Below, piece by piece: positions 3,535 to 42,232 of a stretch of 64,000 bases of DNA. Made by a program: the position numbers and the translations under genes. The stretch is from Acidimicrobiaceae bacterium (GTDB lineage: Bacteria; Actinomycetota; Acidimicrobiia; Acidimicrobiales; Aldehydirespiratoraceae). Each line of letters begins with the position of its first letter. Position 1 is the stretch's first letter. The notes beneath the pieces were generated by a model that searched no databases, was not told the origin of the DNA, and worked only from the letters and a program-made list of their open reading frames with translations. The DNA is taken from positions 1 through 64,000 of the forward strand of contig JAPOYA010000024.1 of the NCBI GenBank assembly GCA_026706815.1. The letters run 5' to 3'.

Positions 3535-4089
3535 TTAGCCTCGAGCGTCCTCCGCGTTGCTTGTGCGTGCCGCGGTCAACGCGACGATCATCACCAGACC
3601 GAGGATCGTGGCCGACAGCAGTGACTCTGAGGCTGTGATCGTGTTGTCCGAATACTGATCGACCGACCCCTCGGACCACTCAAGGGGATCCCTGTGTACC
3701 AGCATTGCGATCATGGCCGAGAAGATCCCGATGGTCACAACAATGCTGGCAGCCATCTCGCTCACCGACCCCGGCGTGGTCCGGCGCCAGCCGGCAACCA
3801 GCAGCACGATCGCCGGGACCCACAACGGGAGCGCCACAATCGAGATCATCGCCGCCGGAATGATCCCAGCTCCCGCGGCCATGACGAATCGTCCGCGGCC
3901 TGCTGAGTGGGCCAGCAGCGCCACTAGAGCGGCAACAAGGAACGGCGCAGCCAAAGAAACTGAGATGCGCAGACTGCCGGGCTCCCCCTCGGATCCGAAG
4001 AACCTGATTGAGGCGATCACCGCCGAATAGGCAATGGTCGCCCAGCAGGCCGCAACCACCCAGCGCTGCATTCGATCATCGTCTCCCAT
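3535..4089 (-). CDS. Hypothetical integral membrane protein
   Basis: About 184 residues with four to five likely membrane segments: WVVAACWATIAYSAVIASI, an Ala/Leu-rich stretch after SVSLAAPF, AAGAGIIPAAMISIVALPL, IVVTIGIFSAMIAML, and a C-terminal one after SATILGLVM. I recognise no family. I chose the ATG at 4089 over the upstream one at 4095 because the two differ by two codons and the later one leaves MGDDDRMQRW before the first membrane segment. The gene stands alone between the Calx-beta remnant and the flavin reductase. Confidence 0.6.
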   Translation of the reverse strand: MGDDDRMQRWVVAACWATIAYSAVIASIRFFGSEGEPGSLRISVSLAAPFLVAALVALLAHSAGRGRFVMAAGAGIIPAAMISIVALPLWVPAIVLLVAGWRRTTPGSVSEMAASIVVTIGIFSAMIAMLVHRDPLEWSEGSVDQYSDNTITASESLLSATILGLVMIVALTAARTSNAEDARG

Positions 4090-4692: not shown

Positions 4693-6699
4693 TCAATCGA
4701 GTTGCGGGCGACCAGTGCCGATGACGGTGGCGACGCCTTCCACGAACAGGGTCCGACCGTCCACATCGACGGACTTCTCGTCCCATTGGGTCTCCAGATC
4801 GAACTCGGGAGCTCCCGCGGCAACCATCGCCGCAGCCACCGCTGAGCCGGCCTGCTCGACAGCCGCTTCTTTGGCGGACTCGAGCTCGAAAAAGGTGTCC
4901 GGTTCCGCTCCGACATGAACCCTGAAAACCCCTCGCCGCGGCGACGAGACAACCACACGCCGCCTCAACCGGACTTTGCCCACGGCAGCACCGATCGCGT
5001 TGGCGACATCTGCGTGCTCGGGAATCTCGACCCTAGTGCCGAGCAGATCTCCGATCGCGGGATAATAGGCAGCCGCCGGGGCGCCGAGGCCCACCAACGG
5101 AACCGCCAGACCGGCCACCAGCTTCGAGGTGCGCGGACTGCCGTCGAGTGCTGCGGCCACCACCTCGGATGCAGCGGCCCGTTCAGGCAGGCCATCGCTC
5201 GCGAGGGCCGAGGCGAGCAGCTTCTCAGCCGACTGACGCACCAGAGCTGCTGTCACAGCCTCAGCGAACTCCTCTGGAGTGTCGGCGATGGTCTTGCCGC
5301 GATGATCGCAACGCCGCGCCCACACTTCAGCAGCAGCTTGGGCAACCGCAGCATCGTGGGTTGACTGCGTGCCCAGCACGTGGCTGGCGTCGGTGGGTGT
5401 GAATGCCGACACGCGCAACACCCCGCGAGCCGCCAGCCTTCTGGTGGCGAGCACGTCTCGGCTGCCTTCGACAACCGTGTCCGCGGCAACGATCTGGTCG
5501 CCGATCCTCTCCATCAGCAGACTCTCGACACGATCCAGCGTGGCCTGTGCGGCTTTCGCGGTCGGCTGCAGAAAAACGGTGCTCCACTCCTGGGGGCTGG
5601 TGTCGGCGGTAAGTTGACGCCTCAACTGCGCTTGCAGGAAGTCACCGTGACTCTGGGCTGTGACTACCAGCGGAACCACACGTCGCGGCCCAACAAGCAG
5701 GTCCGCCCCGAGCGCGCGGTCCGCTAGCAGCACCTCGCTGTCACCACCGAGACCGTGCGTCGCCATGGCCACCGCCTCAACCATGGTCTGATGCCCGCCC
5801 ACCTGCGCCCCTTTGTCGCCGAAGTCGAAAATCCCGTCGCGCAAAGCCGCGATGTCGGTGGTGGTGCCACCGATGTCGGAGATGACGGCATTGCTCGCGC
5901 CCACGAGGTGCGCCGCGCCGAGCAGGCTCGCAGCCGGGCCCGACAGGATCGTCTCCACCGGGCGTTCCCTGACGAAGTCTGCCGACACCAGAGAACCGTT
6001 GCCGCGCACCACCATGATCGGCGCGCCTATTCCCTGCCTGTCGAGCACTTCAGCGGTGGTCGACACGAGCTCATTGATCAGGCCGATCATGCGGGCGTTC
6101 AGCAGAGCCGTCACAGACCGTTTCGGGCCGTCGAGCGCATCGGCCAGCTCATGGCTGCAGGTGACGGGCAGACCGGTTCGCTCCCGAATCAACTTGCGGG
6201 CCGCAATCTCATGGTCGGCATTGCGCACGCTGAACTGCGAAGTGACCGCGAACCCATCGACCGACGGTGCGATCTCAATGACCGCAGCGACGAGCGATTC
6301 CTCGTCGAGCGGTTCGGCTTCGGCACCGTGCGGCGTGTGCCCGCCTGCGACCATCACCACCGAGTCGCGGCCGATCGCATTGCGCAGACCACCCCGGTCG
6401 AGCACGGCCTCCTCGAAACCGATCATCACCAACGCGGCCGGGCGTCCCCTGCCCTCGACGAGCGCGTTGGTTGCCAATGTGGTGGACAACGAGACGAAGC
6501 TGATCTCGCCCGGATCGACCGCAGCCGCGTCGAGCACCCGTTCGATCGCCTCGCCTACGCCCACGGAAAGGTCGTCATGAGTGGTCGGCGCCTTGGCCTT
6601 GGCGAGCAGAGCGCTCGAGCCCTCGTCGTAGACGACCGCGTCGGTGTAAGTACCGCCGGTGTCGACACCGAGGATCCACCGGTTCGCTGAAGCTGGCAT
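4693..6699 (-). CDS. Hydantoinase/oxoprolinase family protein (HyuA-like)
   Basis: The 668 residues carry the ASKHA-type nucleotide-binding fold of HyuA/5-oxoprolinase A subunits. ILGVDTGGTYTDAVV at residues 9-23 is the N-terminal phosphate loop, SLSTTLATNALVEG follows near 70-83, and ISDIGGTTTDIAALRDG near 270 is the second phosphate loop. Family members open cyclic amides with ATP (hydantoins, 5-oxoproline, N-methylhydantoin). No HyuB-type partner is nearby, so the substrate cannot be assigned and the enzyme may act alone or with a distant subunit. Neighbours are a flavin reductase and a nitroreductase on the same strand. Confidence 0.85.
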   Translation of the reverse strand: MPASANRWILGVDTGGTYTDAVVYDEGSSALLAKAKAPTTHDDLSVGVGEAIERVLDAAAVDPGEISFVSLSTTLATNALVEGRGRPAALVMIGFEEAVLDRGGLRNAIGRDSVVMVAGGHTPHGAEAEPLDEESLVAAVIEIAPSVDGFAVTSQFSVRNADHEIAARKLIRERTGLPVTCSHELADALDGPKRSVTALLNARMIGLINELVSTTAEVLDRQGIGAPIMVVRGNGSLVSADFVRERPVETILSGPAASLLGAAHLVGASNAVISDIGGTTTDIAALRDGIFDFGDKGAQVGGHQTMVEAVAMATHGLGGDSEVLLADRALGADLLVGPRRVVPLVVTAQSHGDFLQAQLRRQLTADTSPQEWSTVFLQPTAKAAQATLDRVESLLMERIGDQIVAADTVVEGSRDVLATRRLAARGVLRVSAFTPTDASHVLGTQSTHDAAVAQAAAEVWARRCDHRGKTIADTPEEFAEAVTAALVRQSAEKLLASALASDGLPERAAASEVVAAALDGSPRTSKLVAGLAVPLVGLGAPAAAYYPAIGDLLGTRVEIPEHADVANAIGAAVGKVRLRRRVVVSSPRRGVFRVHVGAEPDTFFELESAKEAAVEQAGSAVAAAMVAAGAPEFDLETQWDEKSVDVDGRTLFVEGVATVIGTGRPQLD

Positions 6700-9581: not shown

Positions 9582-9866
9582 TCAGTGCATGAGTTCGATC
9601 TCGCAGTGAACACCGGGAGCGCCGGCTAGACGCCGGTCCGACGTCAACAAAGTGGCACCCGTCACCTCTGCCAGAGCCACGTAACAGGCGTCATAAGCGG
9701 TGAGGTAGTCGCGAAGTTCCCAACAGCGTTCCAGCAGAGGCTCATGGGGAATGCGCCTGATCGGCAGATGGGCGAGACTCCCCAGCGAGCCGCGGGCGAC
9801 CGGTTCGGGGATCTCATTTCGGCGCAGGAGCCCTCTCAGAGCAGAAACCACTTCCAGCGGAATCAG
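9582..9866 (-). pseudogene. PIN-domain (VapC-like) toxin, N-terminus missing
   Basis: Roughly 93 codons encode the C-terminal two thirds of a VapC-type PIN ribonuclease: LEVVSALRGLLRRNEI helix, LTAYDACYVALAE with a catalytic aspartate, and ATLLTSDRRLA with another. The first ~45 residues, which should hold the initial catalytic aspartate, are missing. The frame runs open into the 3' end of the zeta-type toxin gene, which ends at 9863, so a junction lies near 9865. A truncated product could start at an internal GTG, but an active nuclease is unlikely. Confidence 0.65.
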
Positions 9867-10453
9867 ATGTCGGCCCTAGGCTTGGCACGTGTCAACTCGG
9901 CCGGCGTCCAGAGCGGCCATTCCGGGTCGTTGATGAGCACTCCGTTGCGGAAAGTAGCCAGAAGTCTGAAGGGCACTCGCGCAGAGGTGTTGTTGTAAAT
10001 GTGGGCTTCTGAGGACAGGTCGATGGCTTCACCGATGTGGGACCAGAGCCGTCGATGTCTAGAACGGACCTTCTCCTCTGGAACGTCATGGCCCCCGTTC
10101 TCGACGCGATTCTCAACTCGGGCCACAGCCAAGTCCTCTGGAATGAGGATGACGTGAATCGCCACCAGGTAACCGTCGGCCACTGCGCTGCGAATGAGCT
10201 CAACCTTTGACTCATGCGAGAAAACCGTCTCGGTTGCAAAGGACACTCGGTTCACAAGCAGTTCTGTTCGCCGATGGGCGGCAAGCCGCGCAGCGGTGTA
10301 GGCATGGTTGAGGGAATCGCCTGGCCACCGTTGCGCCGCTATGACATCCGCATTGACGAACTCCAGCGGGACAGGAGCGAGAATCCTCTCGTAGAAGGTC
10401 GTCTTGCCGGCGCCGTTCGGCCCGGCAACAACGTGGAGTACTGGATCTGACAC
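9863..10453 (-). CDS. Zeta-type toxin (P-loop kinase)
   Basis: The 196-residue protein starts with a kinase P-loop, AGPNGAGKTTF at ~11-21, followed by FVNADVIAA and ATETVFSHESK, as in zeta toxins and related small kinases. Zeta toxins phosphorylate UDP-N-acetylglucosamine or other nucleotide sugars and block wall synthesis; that activity is family knowledge and not shown here. The start is GTG at 10453, six bases after the stop of the antitoxin-like gene, the usual order for a toxin-antitoxin operon. Its 3' end abuts the truncated PIN gene. Confidence 0.75.
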   Translation of the reverse strand: MSDPVLHVVAGPNGAGKTTFYERILAPVPLEFVNADVIAAQRWPGDSLNHAYTAARLAAHRRTELLVNRVSFATETVFSHESKVELIRSAVADGYLVAIHVILIPEDLAVARVENRVENGGHDVPEEKVRSRHRRLWSHIGEAIDLSSEAHIYNNTSARVPFRLLATFRNGVLINDPEWPLWTPAELTRAKPRADI

Positions 10454-10459
10454 TGAAGG

Positions 10460-10834
10460 TCAAACAGCAGTTGATTGATCGTCGGTTCGCGCGTGCTCAA
10501 CGATGTTGCCGTCTTCATCGAGTTCGACGAACGACCGCCCCGCTGCGATGAACTCGGCGGCGAGGTCAAGCGCTTCACGCCGTTGTTTCATGTGTTCAAC
10601 CCATTCGGCTCGAACCACCGCTTGTTCTTTGGCGTTGAGTCCATCGTAAGATGCCTCGCCCTCCAGGACTTGTGCGATCGCTTGCTGGGACACACTTTGA
10701 GAAGTCTCCAGTTCCCGCCCGATGCGCGCCCAATGAGCGACCTGCTGCGCGGTGCTGCGGCTCATCACCGATGCCATGAGCTTCGCTGAGGCATGGACAT
10801 CGTCGTCGATTCGGATGGGTGAACTAGTAGCCAC
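10460..10834 (-). CDS. ParD-like antitoxin, partner of the zeta-type toxin
   Basis: About 124 residues. The N-terminal SSPIRIDDDVHASAKLMA strand-helix is the ribbon-helix-helix-like DNA-binding start of the ParD-like antitoxin family, followed by RSTAQQVAHWARIGRELE. The C-terminal acidic segment (FVELDEDGNIVEH) could wrap the toxin. I chose GTG at 10834, preceded by AGAGG, over the upstream start of the open frame. A perfect 8-1-8 palindrome lies 21 bp upstream of the start and probably serves as its operator. It is the first gene of a two-gene operon. Confidence 0.72.
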   Translation of the reverse strand: MATSSPIRIDDDVHASAKLMASVMSRSTAQQVAHWARIGRELETSQSVSQQAIAQVLEGEASYDGLNAKEQAVVRAEWVEHMKQRREALDLAAEFIAAGRSFVELDEDGNIVEHARTDDQSTAV

Positions 10835-10854
10835 AAAGCACCTCTCCACATGAC

Positions 10855-10871
10855 TGTAGCAAATTGCTACA
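10855..10871. promoter_or_regulatory. Palindromic operator candidate of the toxin-antitoxin operon
   Basis: TGTAGCAA-A-TTGCTACA is a perfect 8-bp inverted repeat with a one-base centre, 21 bp upstream of the antitoxin GTG. RHH-type antitoxins usually bind such repeats over their own promoter, so autoregulation is inferred. Confidence 0.6.
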
Positions 10872-10889
10872 CTAGACCGCAACGAGGTC

Positions 10890-11219
10890 CTAGATCAGCC
10901 ATTCGAGGGCGCGGAAAGAGCCCATGCCGGACGGGTCGTAGAGGGCTTCGGCTTCGCTGATTCGGCTGCGGGCCCGCAGGGCTGCCAGGTCGCCGACATG
11001 GGCTGACTCGTGCCACTGGCGCTTGCCCTCGGCCACCAGATCATCGATGCCGTGCGCTCGCAGGAAATCCGCTTGAGTACGGTTCGAGTCGGCTCTGCGA
11101 ACCAGCTCAAGCTGATCGATGGCAACGTCGACGGTGATGTCACAGGCTCCCGGCTCTCTGAGCCAGCGATTCGAATCGCCTGCATCATGTCCTGAGTGGG
11201 TGCGCAACCAGGAGCCCCG
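10890..11219 (-). repeat. 330-bp direct repeat, distal copy: detached 3' end of the MidA-family gene
   Basis: This segment aligns without gaps to 13285-13614, the 3' end of the MidA/NDUFAF7-family gene, at a constant offset of 2395 bases. I count 16 or 17 mismatches in 330 (about 95% identity), mostly in third codon positions. It begins exactly at the stop codon and encodes the same C-terminus, but lacks the first 245 or so residues, so it is a gene fragment. The restriction-modification genes lie between the two copies. Confidence 0.93.
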
Positions 11220-11268
11220 GAACCAGTTCAGTTCTGAATACGCGCTCTCAGTCGTTATTATCCCAACA

Positions 11269-12135
11269 GTGAGCAACGACAACGATTCGGATCTTGAACA
11301 GGAGAATGTTGGCGGCCTCTCCGGTCAGGTCCGTGATATCACCGTGAGCGGATTCCCCCAAGGTTACGACTACAAGGCGACCCGCTACGCAGATGTCATT
11401 CTGAAAGAAGCGTTCCCCAATCGCTTCGCTGATCTGCAGTCGGCGCTTGACGCATTCAGGCCTACGCTGGATGAACTCCGATCAGGAGGAGGTGGGAGGA
11501 CCGTTTTCGTCAGGCGGTTCGACGAGTCTCTGGCGAACCGACTAGAAGACGAACAAATCATCTGGGGCAAACAAAACATCACCATTGAGAAAGGTATTGG
11601 ATTTGACGGGACGGTGATGCCTGTTTCAAGAGTCCGCGGCCATGAGATAGACATGTTTGGCCTGGGTTCGGTAGCGCAACCCCTTCCTGGAGTCGCAGTC
11701 GAGATGGAGTGGAACAACAAAGACCCGTTCTTTGACCGCGACCTAATTAACTTCCAGGCGCTTCACCATGAAGGGGCGATCGCGGTGGGAGTCATAATCA
11801 CGCGGGGAGCTGACCTCCAGAATCTCATATCTACAGTGATCCAGAGCAAGGATGGAGGTTTCAAGTACGGGGCCTCGAGTACGCATTGGGACAAGCTGGT
11901 ACCCAGAATCAATCTGGGCGGTGGGGGTGAATGCCCTCTACTTCTCATTGGGATCCGCCCCGACAGAATCGACGGTATCGATCTTGCACACGTTGTCCGT
12001 GAGAAACTAGATGACGCAGACCTGCTCAGGGAGACTTGGCGGGACACTTACAAGAGCTGGAACGAAGCTAAACCGGTTTTTGACAAACTCCGAAACGATG
12101 CCCTCGAACTCCTTCCTCCTGTGTCGAACATATAG
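11269..12135 (+). CDS. BglII-type type II restriction endonuclease
   Basis: The 288-residue protein fits the BglII/BstYI endonuclease family. The core IDMFGLGSVAQPLPGVAVEM followed by EWNNKDPFFDRDLINF carries the PD-(D/E)xK-like set: an Asp in the EIDMF strand, then ExE before the helix, with ALHHEGAIAVGVIITRG after it. It would cut DNA left unmethylated by its partner; the target sequence cannot be read from the protein. GTG at 11269 gives MSNDNDSD and starts 50 bp after the distal repeat. The gene is visibly more AT-rich (about half GC) than its neighbours. It converges on the methyltransferase with a 19-bp gap. Confidence 0.8.
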   Translation: MSNDNDSDLEQENVGGLSGQVRDITVSGFPQGYDYKATRYADVILKEAFPNRFADLQSALDAFRPTLDELRSGGGGRTVFVRRFDESLANRLEDEQIIWGKQNITIEKGIGFDGTVMPVSRVRGHEIDMFGLGSVAQPLPGVAVEMEWNNKDPFFDRDLINFQALHHEGAIAVGVIITRGADLQNLISTVIQSKDGGFKYGASSTHWDKLVPRINLGGGGECPLLLIGIRPDRIDGIDLAHVVREKLDDADLLRETWRDTYKSWNEAKPVFDKLRNDALELLPPVSNI

Positions 12136-12154
12136 TCCGCGGAGTCATTGAGGT

Positions 12155-13006
12155 TCAACCGTAGGCTGCATACGGTTGGCCTCGCGGTGTCACCTGATCA
12201 TCTGCTTCGTTACCCCAAGAGACCCAACCGGGCCTCGAATAACGAGCGAACAATTCAAGATACGGCCCGGGCGAACAATCTTCAATGACATCGTACTGTT
12301 CGTCAGGTTTGCGTGAATGCTCGCGCTTTCTCGTTTCGATCATGTTGACCTGCCGCCGGCCGGGCGCAAGCGTTCGCATGCTGCCTCTCACACCAAACAA
12401 GATCAATTCGGTCACGTTCCGAAAGTAGAATCCCACACCTCTCCCGTCAGGTCCGCCGTCTTTGCGGCGCTTGGCCCACACGATATTGGACTTGTAGGTA
12501 AATCCCCAAGACTCCATGACCTGCAGCCCGTCGGCGATGAGTGCGTTCGGTACCCACAGATAAAGATGCGCGTTGTCGGTCAGCACCTCCGGGATAGGGA
12601 GTACCCGAATCTCGGCCGTTGTCATTGTGTCGTACCGCGACAATCGACGATGCTCTGGAGCCACCTTGCCCGTACGATTCATGAACTGCCAAGGTGGATC
12701 GGCCAAGATCGTCGAGAATGGTCCACCTTCCACAGTCCGGAGATCTTCGGAAGCGGATTGAACTCCTGCCCCGCGATGTGCTGACACCGCCAGTTCTTCT
12801 CTGGACTTGGGCACGACTCGGATTTCGTGCCCAAGAACTTCGGCCAACGAAGCGAGCGTCGAAATCTGCGGATTGCGGTCACTTCCTGAGAACAACCTCC
12901 TAAGCGACGCCGGTTGGGTATCAGCCAACCGGGCTAGGTCCGCCTTGGATAGTCCCGCCTTCCGGCGAGCATTGTCTAGTTCCTTCAATAGCGTGTTCGT
13001 TTCCAT
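12155..13006 (-). CDS. XRE-fused MT-A70 family adenine-N6 DNA methyltransferase
   Basis: Residues 1-66 form an XRE/Cro-type helix-turn-helix (KAGLSKADLARLADTQPASL). From ~95 on there is an MT-A70 methyltransferase with the catalytic DPPW at ~103-106, the strand AHLYLWVPNALIADG near 150 and a late PGPYLELFAR SAM-binding segment. It should protect host sites from the convergent endonuclease. The ATG at 13006 is 10 bp from a perfect 18-bp palindrome, so the fused HTH may repress its own promoter. The ~250 bp upstream to the MidA gene (13035-13284) holds no other gene I can support. Confidence 0.85.
   Translation of the reverse strand: METNTLLKELDNARRKAGLSKADLARLADTQPASLRRLFSGSDRNPQISTLASLAEVLGHEIRVVPKSREELAVSAHRGAGVQSASEDLRTVEGGPFSTILADPPWQFMNRTGKVAPEHRRLSRYDTMTTAEIRVLPIPEVLTDNAHLYLWVPNALIADGLQVMESWGFTYKSNIVWAKRRKDGGPDGRGVGFYFRNVTELILFGVRGSMRTLAPGRRQVNMIETRKREHSRKPDEQYDVIEDCSPGPYLELFARYSRPGWVSWGNEADDQVTPRGQPYAAYG
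12156..12178. terminator. Hairpin between convergent restriction and modification genes
   Basis: CAACCGTA and TACGGTTG form an 8-bp perfect stem with a 7-base loop just inside the methyltransferase 3' end, 20 bp past the endonuclease stop. No U-tract follows, so terminator function is uncertain. Confidence 0.4.
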
Positions 13007-13016
13007 CTGAATCCAA

Positions 13017-13034
13017 CGTAACACATGTGTTACG
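13017..13034. promoter_or_regulatory. Perfect 18-bp palindrome upstream of the methyltransferase (operator candidate)
   Basis: CGTAACACATGTGTTACG is its own reverse complement and sits 10 bp upstream of the methyltransferase ATG. The neighbouring gene encodes an XRE-type HTH fused to a methyltransferase, so this is the natural binding site for autoregulation. No second full copy is visible near the endonuclease start. Confidence 0.7.
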
Positions 13035-13284
13035 CCTCCCTTGGTATTAGTGGGACGCATTCCCGCGCCGAGCTGAACCGGCAACATATCTAGACCCTGT
13101 GACAGCACAGCCCAAACGCCCGGGAGGGCAATCGAACCGGGTCACAACAAAGGCAAGATGACTTCCAAGCCGCGTCAACTCCCCCAACTGAGGGTCCGTC
13201 CGATGCGCACACGCGTTCTACTCGATTACTGATCGGATGAGCGCTTGGAAGCCATTCCCGATCTGGCTTCGCCGTAACGGCGTG

Positions 13285-13614
13285 CTAGAGCAGCCATTCG
13301 AGGGCGCGGAAAGAGCCCATGCCGGACGGGTCGCAGAGGGCTTCGGCTTCACTGATGCGGCTGCGGGCCCGCAGGGCTGGCAGGTCGCCGACATGGGCCG
13401 ACTCGTGCCACTGGCGCTTTCCCTCGGCCACCAGATCATCGATGCCGTGCGCTCGCAGGAAATCCGCTTGAGTGCGGTTCGAGTCGGCTCTGCGAACCAA
13501 CTCAAGCTGATCGATGGCAACGTCGACGGTGATGTCACAGGCTCCCGGCTCTTTGAGCCAGCGATTCGAGTCCCCTGCATCATGTCCTGAGTGGCTGCGC
13601 ACCCAAGAACCCCG
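13285..13614 (-). repeat. 330-bp direct repeat, proximal copy within the intact MidA-family gene
   Basis: This is the in-frame 3' end of the MidA-family gene and the partner of 10890-11219. Homology stops sharply on both sides: at the stop codon (13285) and at 13614, where the gene body continues and the other copy runs into unrelated sequence before the endonuclease. Confidence 0.93.
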
Positions 13615-14355
13615 CGCTGCGAGTTCCGCTGTGATGCCGCCATAGTCGAGCACCACCACACGGCCTGCGTGCAACGAACCGAGCGCTTCGGCGAGCCAAT
13701 CCCGCGCTGCCCTCTGCCAAACAACCTGCAACCCTTCAGAACCGCGCGCACCCACCAGCGTGTTGAGTTCTTCGACGATCACAGACGACTCCGGAGCCGG
13801 AACCGCAACCGTGGCGAACTGGCCCCAATCTGGGCCTTCGCGGATCCGCAACTCAAACCAGTCCCCACCACGGCGCTCGTAGAGGTCGAAGCCCAAGTTG
13901 TCCAAGAGCTCGTTCGCCAGCACGACCCCGACCGCAGCCGGCTCGCTGGGGCCCTTCTCGGCCGAGACCACCGACGGATGCTCGGGGTGCTGAGCCCGCT
14001 GCACAGCCGACCGCTCTATTGCATGCCATATGAGCGCGCCGGAGCGAAGCGCCTCGGGTTCAGCGGCGACAACTGAGCGCGCCAGCGTGCCCGGGCCGGC
14101 ACCCCACTCATAGACAGGAAACTGCCCTGGGGATCCAAGCTCTCGCCACCAAGTGTCGATCGCCCGGGCCACCACAGCACCGAATAACGGACCTACTTCG
14201 GGAGCAGTCAGGAAATCTCCCTGTCGCCCAGCTTGGCCTCTTGCCTGATAGAACCCCTCGCTTTCGTCGTAGAGCGCGGCGTCCACATATTCCGAAACCG
14301 GGATCGACCCCTTTTCAGCAATCCTTCTGCGGAGTCGAAGAGCGAGCGTCGCCAC
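13285..14355 (-). CDS. SAM-dependent methyltransferase, MidA/NDUFAF7 family
   Basis: The 356-residue protein has the family's N-terminal helix (RLRRRIAEKGSIPVSEYVDAAL), the SAM loop YEWGAGPGTLARSVV near 100, and a middle ANELLDNLGFDLYER motif. In mitochondria the homologue NDUFAF7 methylates an arginine of NDUFS2, the NuoD counterpart, and is needed for complex I assembly. Here it begins 20 bp after nuoN as the last gene of the 11-subunit nuo operon, which supports a similar role by context. Its last 110 codons are duplicated beyond the restriction-modification genes, so the 3' end may be partly of foreign origin. Confidence 0.85.
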   Translation of the reverse strand: MATLALRLRRRIAEKGSIPVSEYVDAALYDESEGFYQARGQAGRQGDFLTAPEVGPLFGAVVARAIDTWWRELGSPGQFPVYEWGAGPGTLARSVVAAEPEALRSGALIWHAIERSAVQRAQHPEHPSVVSAEKGPSEPAAVGVVLANELLDNLGFDLYERRGGDWFELRIREGPDWGQFATVAVPAPESSVIVEELNTLVGARGSEGLQVVWQRAARDWLAEALGSLHAGRVVVLDYGGITAELAARGSWVRSHSGHDAGDSNRWLKEPGACDITVDVAIDQLELVRRADSNRTQADFLRAHGIDDLVAEGKRQWHESAHVGDLPALRARSRISEAEALCDPSGMGSFRALEWLL

Positions 14356-29160: not shown

Positions 29161-29402
29161 GGGCTTGACCAGCCGCCGCTCGCGTCGAAGGCCGTGGAGT
29201 GCCTAACTCCGAAAATCGAGGGCCGGGCCCTGGCAGTACAGATATCGCTGGCTGAAAGGGGCGTTCACCGCGCTGCGTCCATTCCGGACTTGCTCATAGC
29301 GGCAACCGCAGAGCTGGCACACCTCACCGTTCTCCATGTCGACAAAGATTTCGATCTGGTCGCCCAAGTCACAGGACAGCCAATGGAGCGACTCCGCCTA
29401 TG
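29161..29402 (+). pseudogene. 3' fragment of a vapC-like PIN toxin gene
   Basis: About 80 codons from GLDQPPLAS to QPMERLRL match the C-terminal 80 residues of the intact VapC at 41658-42062, ungapped at a constant offset of 12659 bases. About 40 of 242 bases differ (~83% identity), mostly silent. The start region is gone and the stop has become TGG. The following 29403-29569 contains no gene I can support, only the upstream region of the next ORF. Confidence 0.85.
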
Positions 29403-29569
29403 GCCGCATCACTGTGAAACTGAGCGCTGCTCACTGCAGCGCTCAGCCGCTGGCGAACAACCGGGGACAGCTTCGAAGGCCAGCACGCCGATGGAGCCGA
29501 GGACGTGGTTTCGATGTGATTTCAGGGTCGGCTTGATATTTCGCTGACCCATCCTGCTACCGTAGCGAC

Positions 29570-41657: not shown

Positions 41658-42062
41658 GTGACCACATGGCTGATCGACAAATCCGCGTTGGTGCGGCTTT
41701 CTCGAAGTCCCGATGCTGACAAATGGGCTTCTAGAATCGAGCGTGGGCTGCTGCGCATCTCAACAGTGACTCTTCTCGAGGTCGGGTTCTCAGCACGCTC
41801 AGCGGGTGATTTACGTGCCGGGCTCGACCAGCCTCCGCTCGCGTCAATGCCCGTAGAGTATCTGACGCCGAAAGTCGAGGACCGGGCTCTGACCGTACAG
41901 ATTTCGCTGGCTGAGCAGGGCGTTCACCGCGCGGCGTCTATCCCGGACTTGCTCATAGCGGCTACTGCGGAACTGGCGCAGCTTACCGTTCTCCATGTCG
42001 ACAAGGATTTTGGGCTGATCGCACAGGTGACAGGACAGTCGATGGAGCGACTTCGCCTATGA
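41658..42062 (+). CDS. vapC: VapC-type PIN-domain ribonuclease toxin
   Basis: 134 residues beginning (GTG) [20 protein letters not shown], with the first catalytic Asp in LIDKSAL, the Glu in [13 protein letters not shown], the third acid in [17 protein letters not shown] and the last in [12 protein letters not shown]. VapC toxins cleave tRNA or rRNA. The last 242 bases are related to a fragment at 29161-29402. The stop overlaps a DUF4143 remnant on the opposite strand. Confidence 0.88.
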
Positions 42063-42232
42063 CCAAAGTGAAGAGATCGGGCGCATGTGGATACGATCGC
42101 CGATTTTGAGGTCGTGTTCGCCCATATGCAACACAATCCCGCCAAGGAACAGCCCGGGTGCCGTTTGGTCAAGTCGGTCGCGCAGCCAGCGCAGATGGTC
42201 TGCTGTGCCGGGCGACGTTTTTGCACATCAAC
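42058..42232 (-). pseudogene. 3'-terminal remnant of a DUF4143 ATPase
   Basis: On the minus strand about 55 codons encode DHLRWLRDRLDQTAPG and [14 protein letters not shown] then a stop, matching the end of the intact ATPase at 1892-3169 (HLRWLRDKIDVVAPG, GDRIHMRPIGCLW). An in-frame stop lies just upstream and there is no ATPase domain. The rest of 42063-42258 holds only a CTAGCGG micro-repeat at the nuoN stop. Confidence 0.75.

Follow-up and report, generated by a model that had tools for sequence, protein, structure and literature searches.

A restriction-modification unit between recombining copies of a host gene tail in sister species of Acidimicrobiaceae

How restriction-modification units that carry no recombinase of their own move has been an open question since the genome comparisons made in Helicobacter. 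It is raised again by the window analyzed here, a 64,000-nucleotide stretch of an Acidimicrobiaceae genome (G000), where two restriction-modification genes lie between long direct repeats of the 3' end of a neighboring gene. The copies, at 10890–11219 and 13285–13614, can be aligned ungapped at an offset of 2395 and differ at 16 of 330 positions, just as the original prediction described them. Both represent the last 110 codons, stop codon included, of a gene on the minus strand (13285–14355), and its match to PF02636 bears out the predicted identity as a MidA-family SAM-dependent methyltransferase gene; its synteny with NuoN is conserved in the family. The proximal copy (13285–13614, minus strand) is the 3' end of the intact MidA gene. 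The distal copy (10890–11219, minus strand) is a MidA tail that lacks the first 247 codons, the 5' part of the gene, and its frame remains open through all 16 differences, interrupted by neither a stop codon nor a frameshift. The low-coordinate end of the repeat is the MidA stop codon, TAG on the minus strand, beyond which blastn adds only about 13 bp. An assembly artifact is unlikely because a sister species, assembled independently, shows this architecture too and because the copies differ from each other. The match is not due to chance: no long-range repeat in the 162.5-kb contig is stronger, and the next-best pair more than 1 kb apart (29161–29405 and 41820–42064, contig G000:C62) is a direct repeat of 245 bp, 83% identical, with its copies 12.7 kb apart. 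A crossover made in silico anywhere in the MidA repeat deletes 2395 bp and leaves an intact MidA frame of 356 codons.

ORF analysis and domain typing place only two genes between the repeats, tail to tail and with no integrase, in keeping with the prediction. One, on the plus strand at 11269–12135, encodes a BglII-family type II restriction endonuclease that scores 89.8 bits against PF09195, for which the Pfam gathering cut-off is 26. Its conserved residues include D128, kept in 95% of homologs, and the motif E145-x-E147-W-N-N-K, in which both glutamates are invariant in 44 homologs; a search of PDB sequences with the endonuclease gave no significant match. The other, on the minus strand at 12155–13006, encodes a DNA methyltransferase composed of an N-terminal HTH (HTH_3) and an MT-A70 domain, whose intact DPPW motif is invariant in 41 homologs; the query for the methyltransferase searches carried three extra residues ahead of the likely start at 13006. 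Directly upstream of that start lies an 18-bp palindrome, CGTAACACATGTGTTACG (13017–13034), which is kept in related units and is probably the operator for the HTH of the methyltransferase. Similar palindromes precede the HTH-methyltransferase at most of the related loci examined, which suggests that the methyltransferase is autoregulated through this putative operator. The promoter region of the methyltransferase (13007–13105, minus strand), which we take as the left end of the unit, aligns with restriction units at unrelated loci, the alignment beginning at a –35-like CTGTCA (13100–13105). At the other end, a 49-bp junction (11220–11268, plus strand) leads from the distal tail to the endonuclease start. 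Avoidance of palindromic 6-mers was uninformative as to the methylation site, since TGATCA is mildly avoided also in G001, a sister species that has no such unit at MidA. Carriage of the unit by a phage or plasmid was also rejected, because homologs found there are at most 30–56% identical and have no link to the locus.

The genus sample consisted of five genomes besides G000, and three of the species represented, G000, G001, and G003, are sisters. G003 carries the same unit in the same orientation and at the same place, with a junction between tail and endonuclease that is the same within about 12 bp. The unit is 92–95% identical in nucleotide sequence between the two genomes, a divergence equal to that of the flanking NuoN and Asd genes (91–92%), so the unit is old and shared and was probably already present in the common ancestor of G000 and G003. 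The MidA gene of G003 (L032, 3751–4821) is unusually diverged, being 84% identical to window positions 13285–14355 compared with the 91–92% of the neighboring genes. In G003 the locus has a clean form, 475 bp–1792 bp–475 bp, whose repeat copies are 98.1% identical and consist, on both sides, of 342 bp of MidA, a 51-bp spacer, and 82 bp of the promoter and operator of the unit. The copies therefore share 133 bp past the MidA stop codon, and the prediction that the repeats start exactly at that codon, which is correct for the window genome, fails for the original duplication. The G003 repeat ends in the middle of the palindrome, after which the proximal copy enters the methyltransferase gene and the distal copy enters other DNA, and its last 82 bp align with the promoters of related units at unrelated loci. 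Because promoter sequence of the unit and half of its operator make up about 82 bp of this repeat, it is not a plain target duplication, and the distal copy, having a segment of the unit promoter, carries a stub of the unit. In the window, the repeat comprises target DNA only: the distal copy reaches only to the stop codon, directly beyond which lie a ParD-like antitoxin gene (10460–10882) and a zeta/AAA_33 kinase gene (9863–10453), a pair on the minus strand (9863–10882) that is a neighbor of the unit and lies outside it. The stub thus appears to have been lost or replaced in G000.

The relationship between the two tails does not agree with the original proposal that the distal one evolved elsewhere under selection. 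That proposal drew on the mostly silent differences between the copies, and the bias itself is real: 10 of the 16 differences are synonymous and 6 are nonsynonymous, against a neutral expectation of 73% nonsynonymous, or about 27% silent (P = 0.003). Exchange with the working MidA gene suffices to explain it, however, with no need to invoke selection in a foreign genome. Comparison of the copies with relatives, expected to tell a foreign tail from a native one, instead grouped them by genome. The tails are 95.2% identical within G000 and 98.5% within G003, compared with 86.7–87.9% between the species; 33 informative sites follow the genome and 2 follow the position, which is the orthologous pattern. 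The tail tree likewise places the G000 copies together (85/91 support) and the G003 copies together (100/99), a clade uniting the distal copies is rejected by an AU test (p = 1e-5), and none of the tail copies clusters with a foreign species. A tail from a foreign species is ruled out by this tree and the site counts. The two sites of orthologous pattern lie at the repeat edge, at positions –1 and 8, where both distal copies read GG[C/G]TCCTGGTTGCGCACCCAC and the proximal copies differ. At this high-coordinate end, the first 20–24 nt or so of the window's distal copy retain old differences common to the distal copy of G003, and in G003 all 9 mismatches fall within the first 33 nt, with the remaining 442 bp identical. 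Mismatches at the edge are the footprint to be expected where repeats undergo gene conversion or crossover and their homology ends at that point. The repeats appear, from these alignments, to be an ancestral duplication whose tails have been homogenized in place and kept alike by recombination, although interspecies transfer followed by conversion would look similar.

In G001, three cobalamin-type genes (GHMP kinase, aminotransferase, and CobD/CbiB) come after MidA, with a 144-bp MidA tail beyond them, and a second contig of G003 holds the same cobalamin genes and a MidA tail. At these sites (L031, 4411–4554 and 8441–8584, in G001; L033, 4443–4586, in G003), the 144-bp tails end at the stop codon, are 95% alike between the species, and are not homogenized with MidA. 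Past its MidA gene, G001 shares the spacer and the initial 30 bp of the unit promoter, beyond which its sequence is unrelated. Because local alignment with a free choice of gaps had been weak, the 30-bp piece was compared in a fixed register with the promoters of four distant units. It matched at 77 of 120 positions, whereas the best of 237,334 sampled 30-mers of the genus reached 75 of 120; when the two promoter hexamers were left out, the excess stayed, with about 0.08% (0.0008) of random 30-mers scoring as high. We regard the piece, with moderate confidence, as the scar of a lost unit, a case that rests on 30 bp. The G001 site differs from a clean excision product in that the sequence after the stub is unrelated to that of G003. 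Empty sites, which the prediction had looked to relatives for, exist in two more distant species: the MidA 3' end is single-copy in both G004 and G002, and in G002 an HD gene comes directly after MidA. The ancestral order in the family is NuoN-MidA-(variable)-SnoaL-DUF4349-oxidoreductase-HD-Asd. As for the wider neighborhood, in window region 9582–10882 the ParD-like/zeta pair is followed by a PIN gene without about 35 N-terminal residues, and the SnoaL, DUF4349, and molybdopterin oxidoreductase genes of G001 and G003 are missing there. In G003 (contig G003:C38, L033), the tail of a SnoaL-like gene is also duplicated (882–1024 and 5298–5440; 143 bp, 98%), and its copies flank the same cobalamin/PIN segment; the ORFs listed there include no integrase. 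A genome-wide habit of tail duplication was considered and rejected, as this SnoaL case, in the same region, is the sole other recognized gene-tail duplication in about 520 kb of sampled contigs.

Direct repeats also flank some related units elsewhere. With a repeat of at least 33 bp and at least 88% identity, its copies 1.4–4.5 kb apart, 7 of 42 loci with related two-gene units are bracketed, whereas the rate in control intervals drawn from these loci is 1.4%; the nominal binomial p for the excess is 2e-6, and two of the seven are the MidA site in G000 and G003. At four of the seven the repeat is a tRNA gene or an apparent tRNA 3' end. It comprises the whole tRNA-Met plus 18 bp at L065 (710–802 and 2938–3030, 98.9%), where it flanks a related unit in a Thr-Met-Trp tRNA cluster, and tRNA 3' ends at L071, L074, and L076, the last judged by eye with no tRNA called by ARAGORN. 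A tRNA-Thr/tRNA-Met neighborhood is widespread in the class sample. An integrase remnant near L074 indicates that some of these bracketed units may be ordinary islands. At L106 (G041:C40), a 55-bp repeat of promoter character (2431–2485 and 3898–3952, 96%) brackets a divergent restriction unit; one copy lies upstream of the methyltransferase gene and the other seemingly upstream of a neighboring Dam-like gene, which gives the impression of a copied promoter.

The history we consider reasonably probable is one in which an ancestral unit shared by the sister species acquired a duplicated segment of MidA tail, spacer, and promoter, with tails that have recombined ever since and a unit that can be excised. 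The common ancestor of the three sister species would have received a compact restriction-modification unit of about 1.85 kb at a point some 50 bp downstream of MidA, and a second copy of the MidA 3' end, the spacer, and the unit promoter would later have arisen at the opposite end of the unit. The simplest route that we infer would be a tandem duplication of the tail together with the unit, followed by loss of the second unit except for a promoter stub; alternatively, a circle made of tail and unit that entered through a single crossover in the tail would lead to the same arrangement. The inclusion of the unit promoter in the repeat of at least one genome points to one of these two routes over a target duplication at a staggered cut. 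Homologous recombination between the tails has since kept them alike, as the pattern of conversion shows, and the same recombination could delete the unit, so that it can probably drop out while leaving MidA whole. Such an event between the tails is the likely reason why G001 lacks the unit. Behind this history stand the unit and junction shared by G000 and G003, homogenization up to the repeat edge, the stub in G003, and the intact MidA frame left after excision in silico; the excision and mobility of the unit itself would be deduced from these. The three sister species present three states of one site, a clean 475-bp form, a trimmed form, and a putative lost form, which suggest that the repeats have been recombinationally active after speciation, with the host gene usable throughout. 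An unlikely extension is that the unit is an integrase-free mobile element that uses the host-gene tail as its own homology arm: a crossover between the tails would release a 2.4-kb circle of tail and restriction genes, leaving MidA whole, and the circle would reenter any cell with MidA by one crossover. If that is true, repeated cycles would yield both homogenized tails and a promoter stub.

One alternative is a strict insertion with long target duplication, in which the unit entered at a point roughly 130 bp downstream of MidA, its insertion copying 475 bp of host DNA to both sides. The clean G003 form and the resemblance to the form described for Helicobacter restriction units (PMC3031569, PMC3874152, PMC1643837) speak for it, and the original suggestion that the unit duplicated its target is upheld insofar as the repeats are long and the host 3' end is single-copy in G004 and G002. 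That suggestion is incomplete, however, because the distal copy of G003 also holds the unit promoter and half of the operator; with 82 of 475 bp being promoter of the unit type, host DNA does not account for the whole repeat unless a stub left by an earlier, lost unit was there beforehand, and we consider a strict target duplication rather unlikely.

Integrase-borne islands occupy gene or tRNA 3' ends, the tRNA 3' end being a classic attachment site. The unit could accordingly be a site-specific island served by an integrase in trans or since lost, with the MidA 3' end as the attachment site, a replacement tail brought along, and the cobalamin elements stacked at the same place. Two cargoes do adjoin MidA tails, the unit in G000 and G003 and the cobalamin genes with their 144-bp tail in G001 and G003, and the related units bracketed by tRNA 3' ends, together with the integrase remnant near one of them, keep this explanation alive. 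Yet no integrase was present between the repeats or among the neighboring ORFs typed in G000, G001, and G003, the repeats differ in length (475, 342/330, and 144 bp), and a tail borne by the element would not explain the 133 bp past the stop codon that are common to the copies of G003. An island of this kind seems quite improbable. The repeat begins at MidA codon 243–247 or so for the unit and at about codon 310 for the cobalamin genes. It is very improbable that G000 and G003 each acquired the unit on their own, along with a tail from another species, through recombination in MidA. The nearest species does differ between MidA, which joins G000 with G001, and the neighboring genes, but the identical junction, the divergence of the unit at the level of the genome background, and the grouping of no tail with a foreign species oppose independent acquisition.

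Genome comparison, mainly in Helicobacter, has revealed restriction units whose insertion is accompanied by target duplications that are long and variable, on the order of 100 bp (PMC3031569, PMC3874152, and PMC1643837, citing Nobusato et al. 2000 and Furuta et al. 2010). The MidA locus has the same outward form, as the prediction pointed out: a unit with no transposase or integrase of its own, recognized by genome comparison, lies between direct repeats of at least about 100 bp that copy host sequence, here the 3' end of a neighbor. It differs from the Helicobacter units in belonging to the class Acidimicrobiia, in its repeat of 330–475 bp that contains the unit promoter in G003, in predating a species split, and in having been homogenized by recombination. 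Direct repeats around a unit also permit tandem amplification (Sadykov et al. 2003, as cited in PMC3031569). The repeats at MidA would similarly permit unequal crossing-over, and a lost second copy would leave a tail and a promoter stub, but the locus now has one complete unit, and it is the stub from which amplification would be deduced. The locus resembles integrase-borne islands at gene or tRNA 3' ends in that the gene 3' end is repeated, the gene is intact, and several cargoes are found at one site, and it departs from them in its lack of an integrase and in a repeat that extends past the gene into the promoter of the cargo. Within the BglII/BstYI family of type II systems (PF09195), to which the endonuclease belongs by its score above the Pfam cut-off, the unit is set apart by its partner, an MT-A70 methyltransferase with an N-terminal HTH. 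The kind of arrangement, a restriction unit with long duplications, is already known from Helicobacter, and what is new here is the conversion footprint, the promoter stub, and the probable scar of loss.
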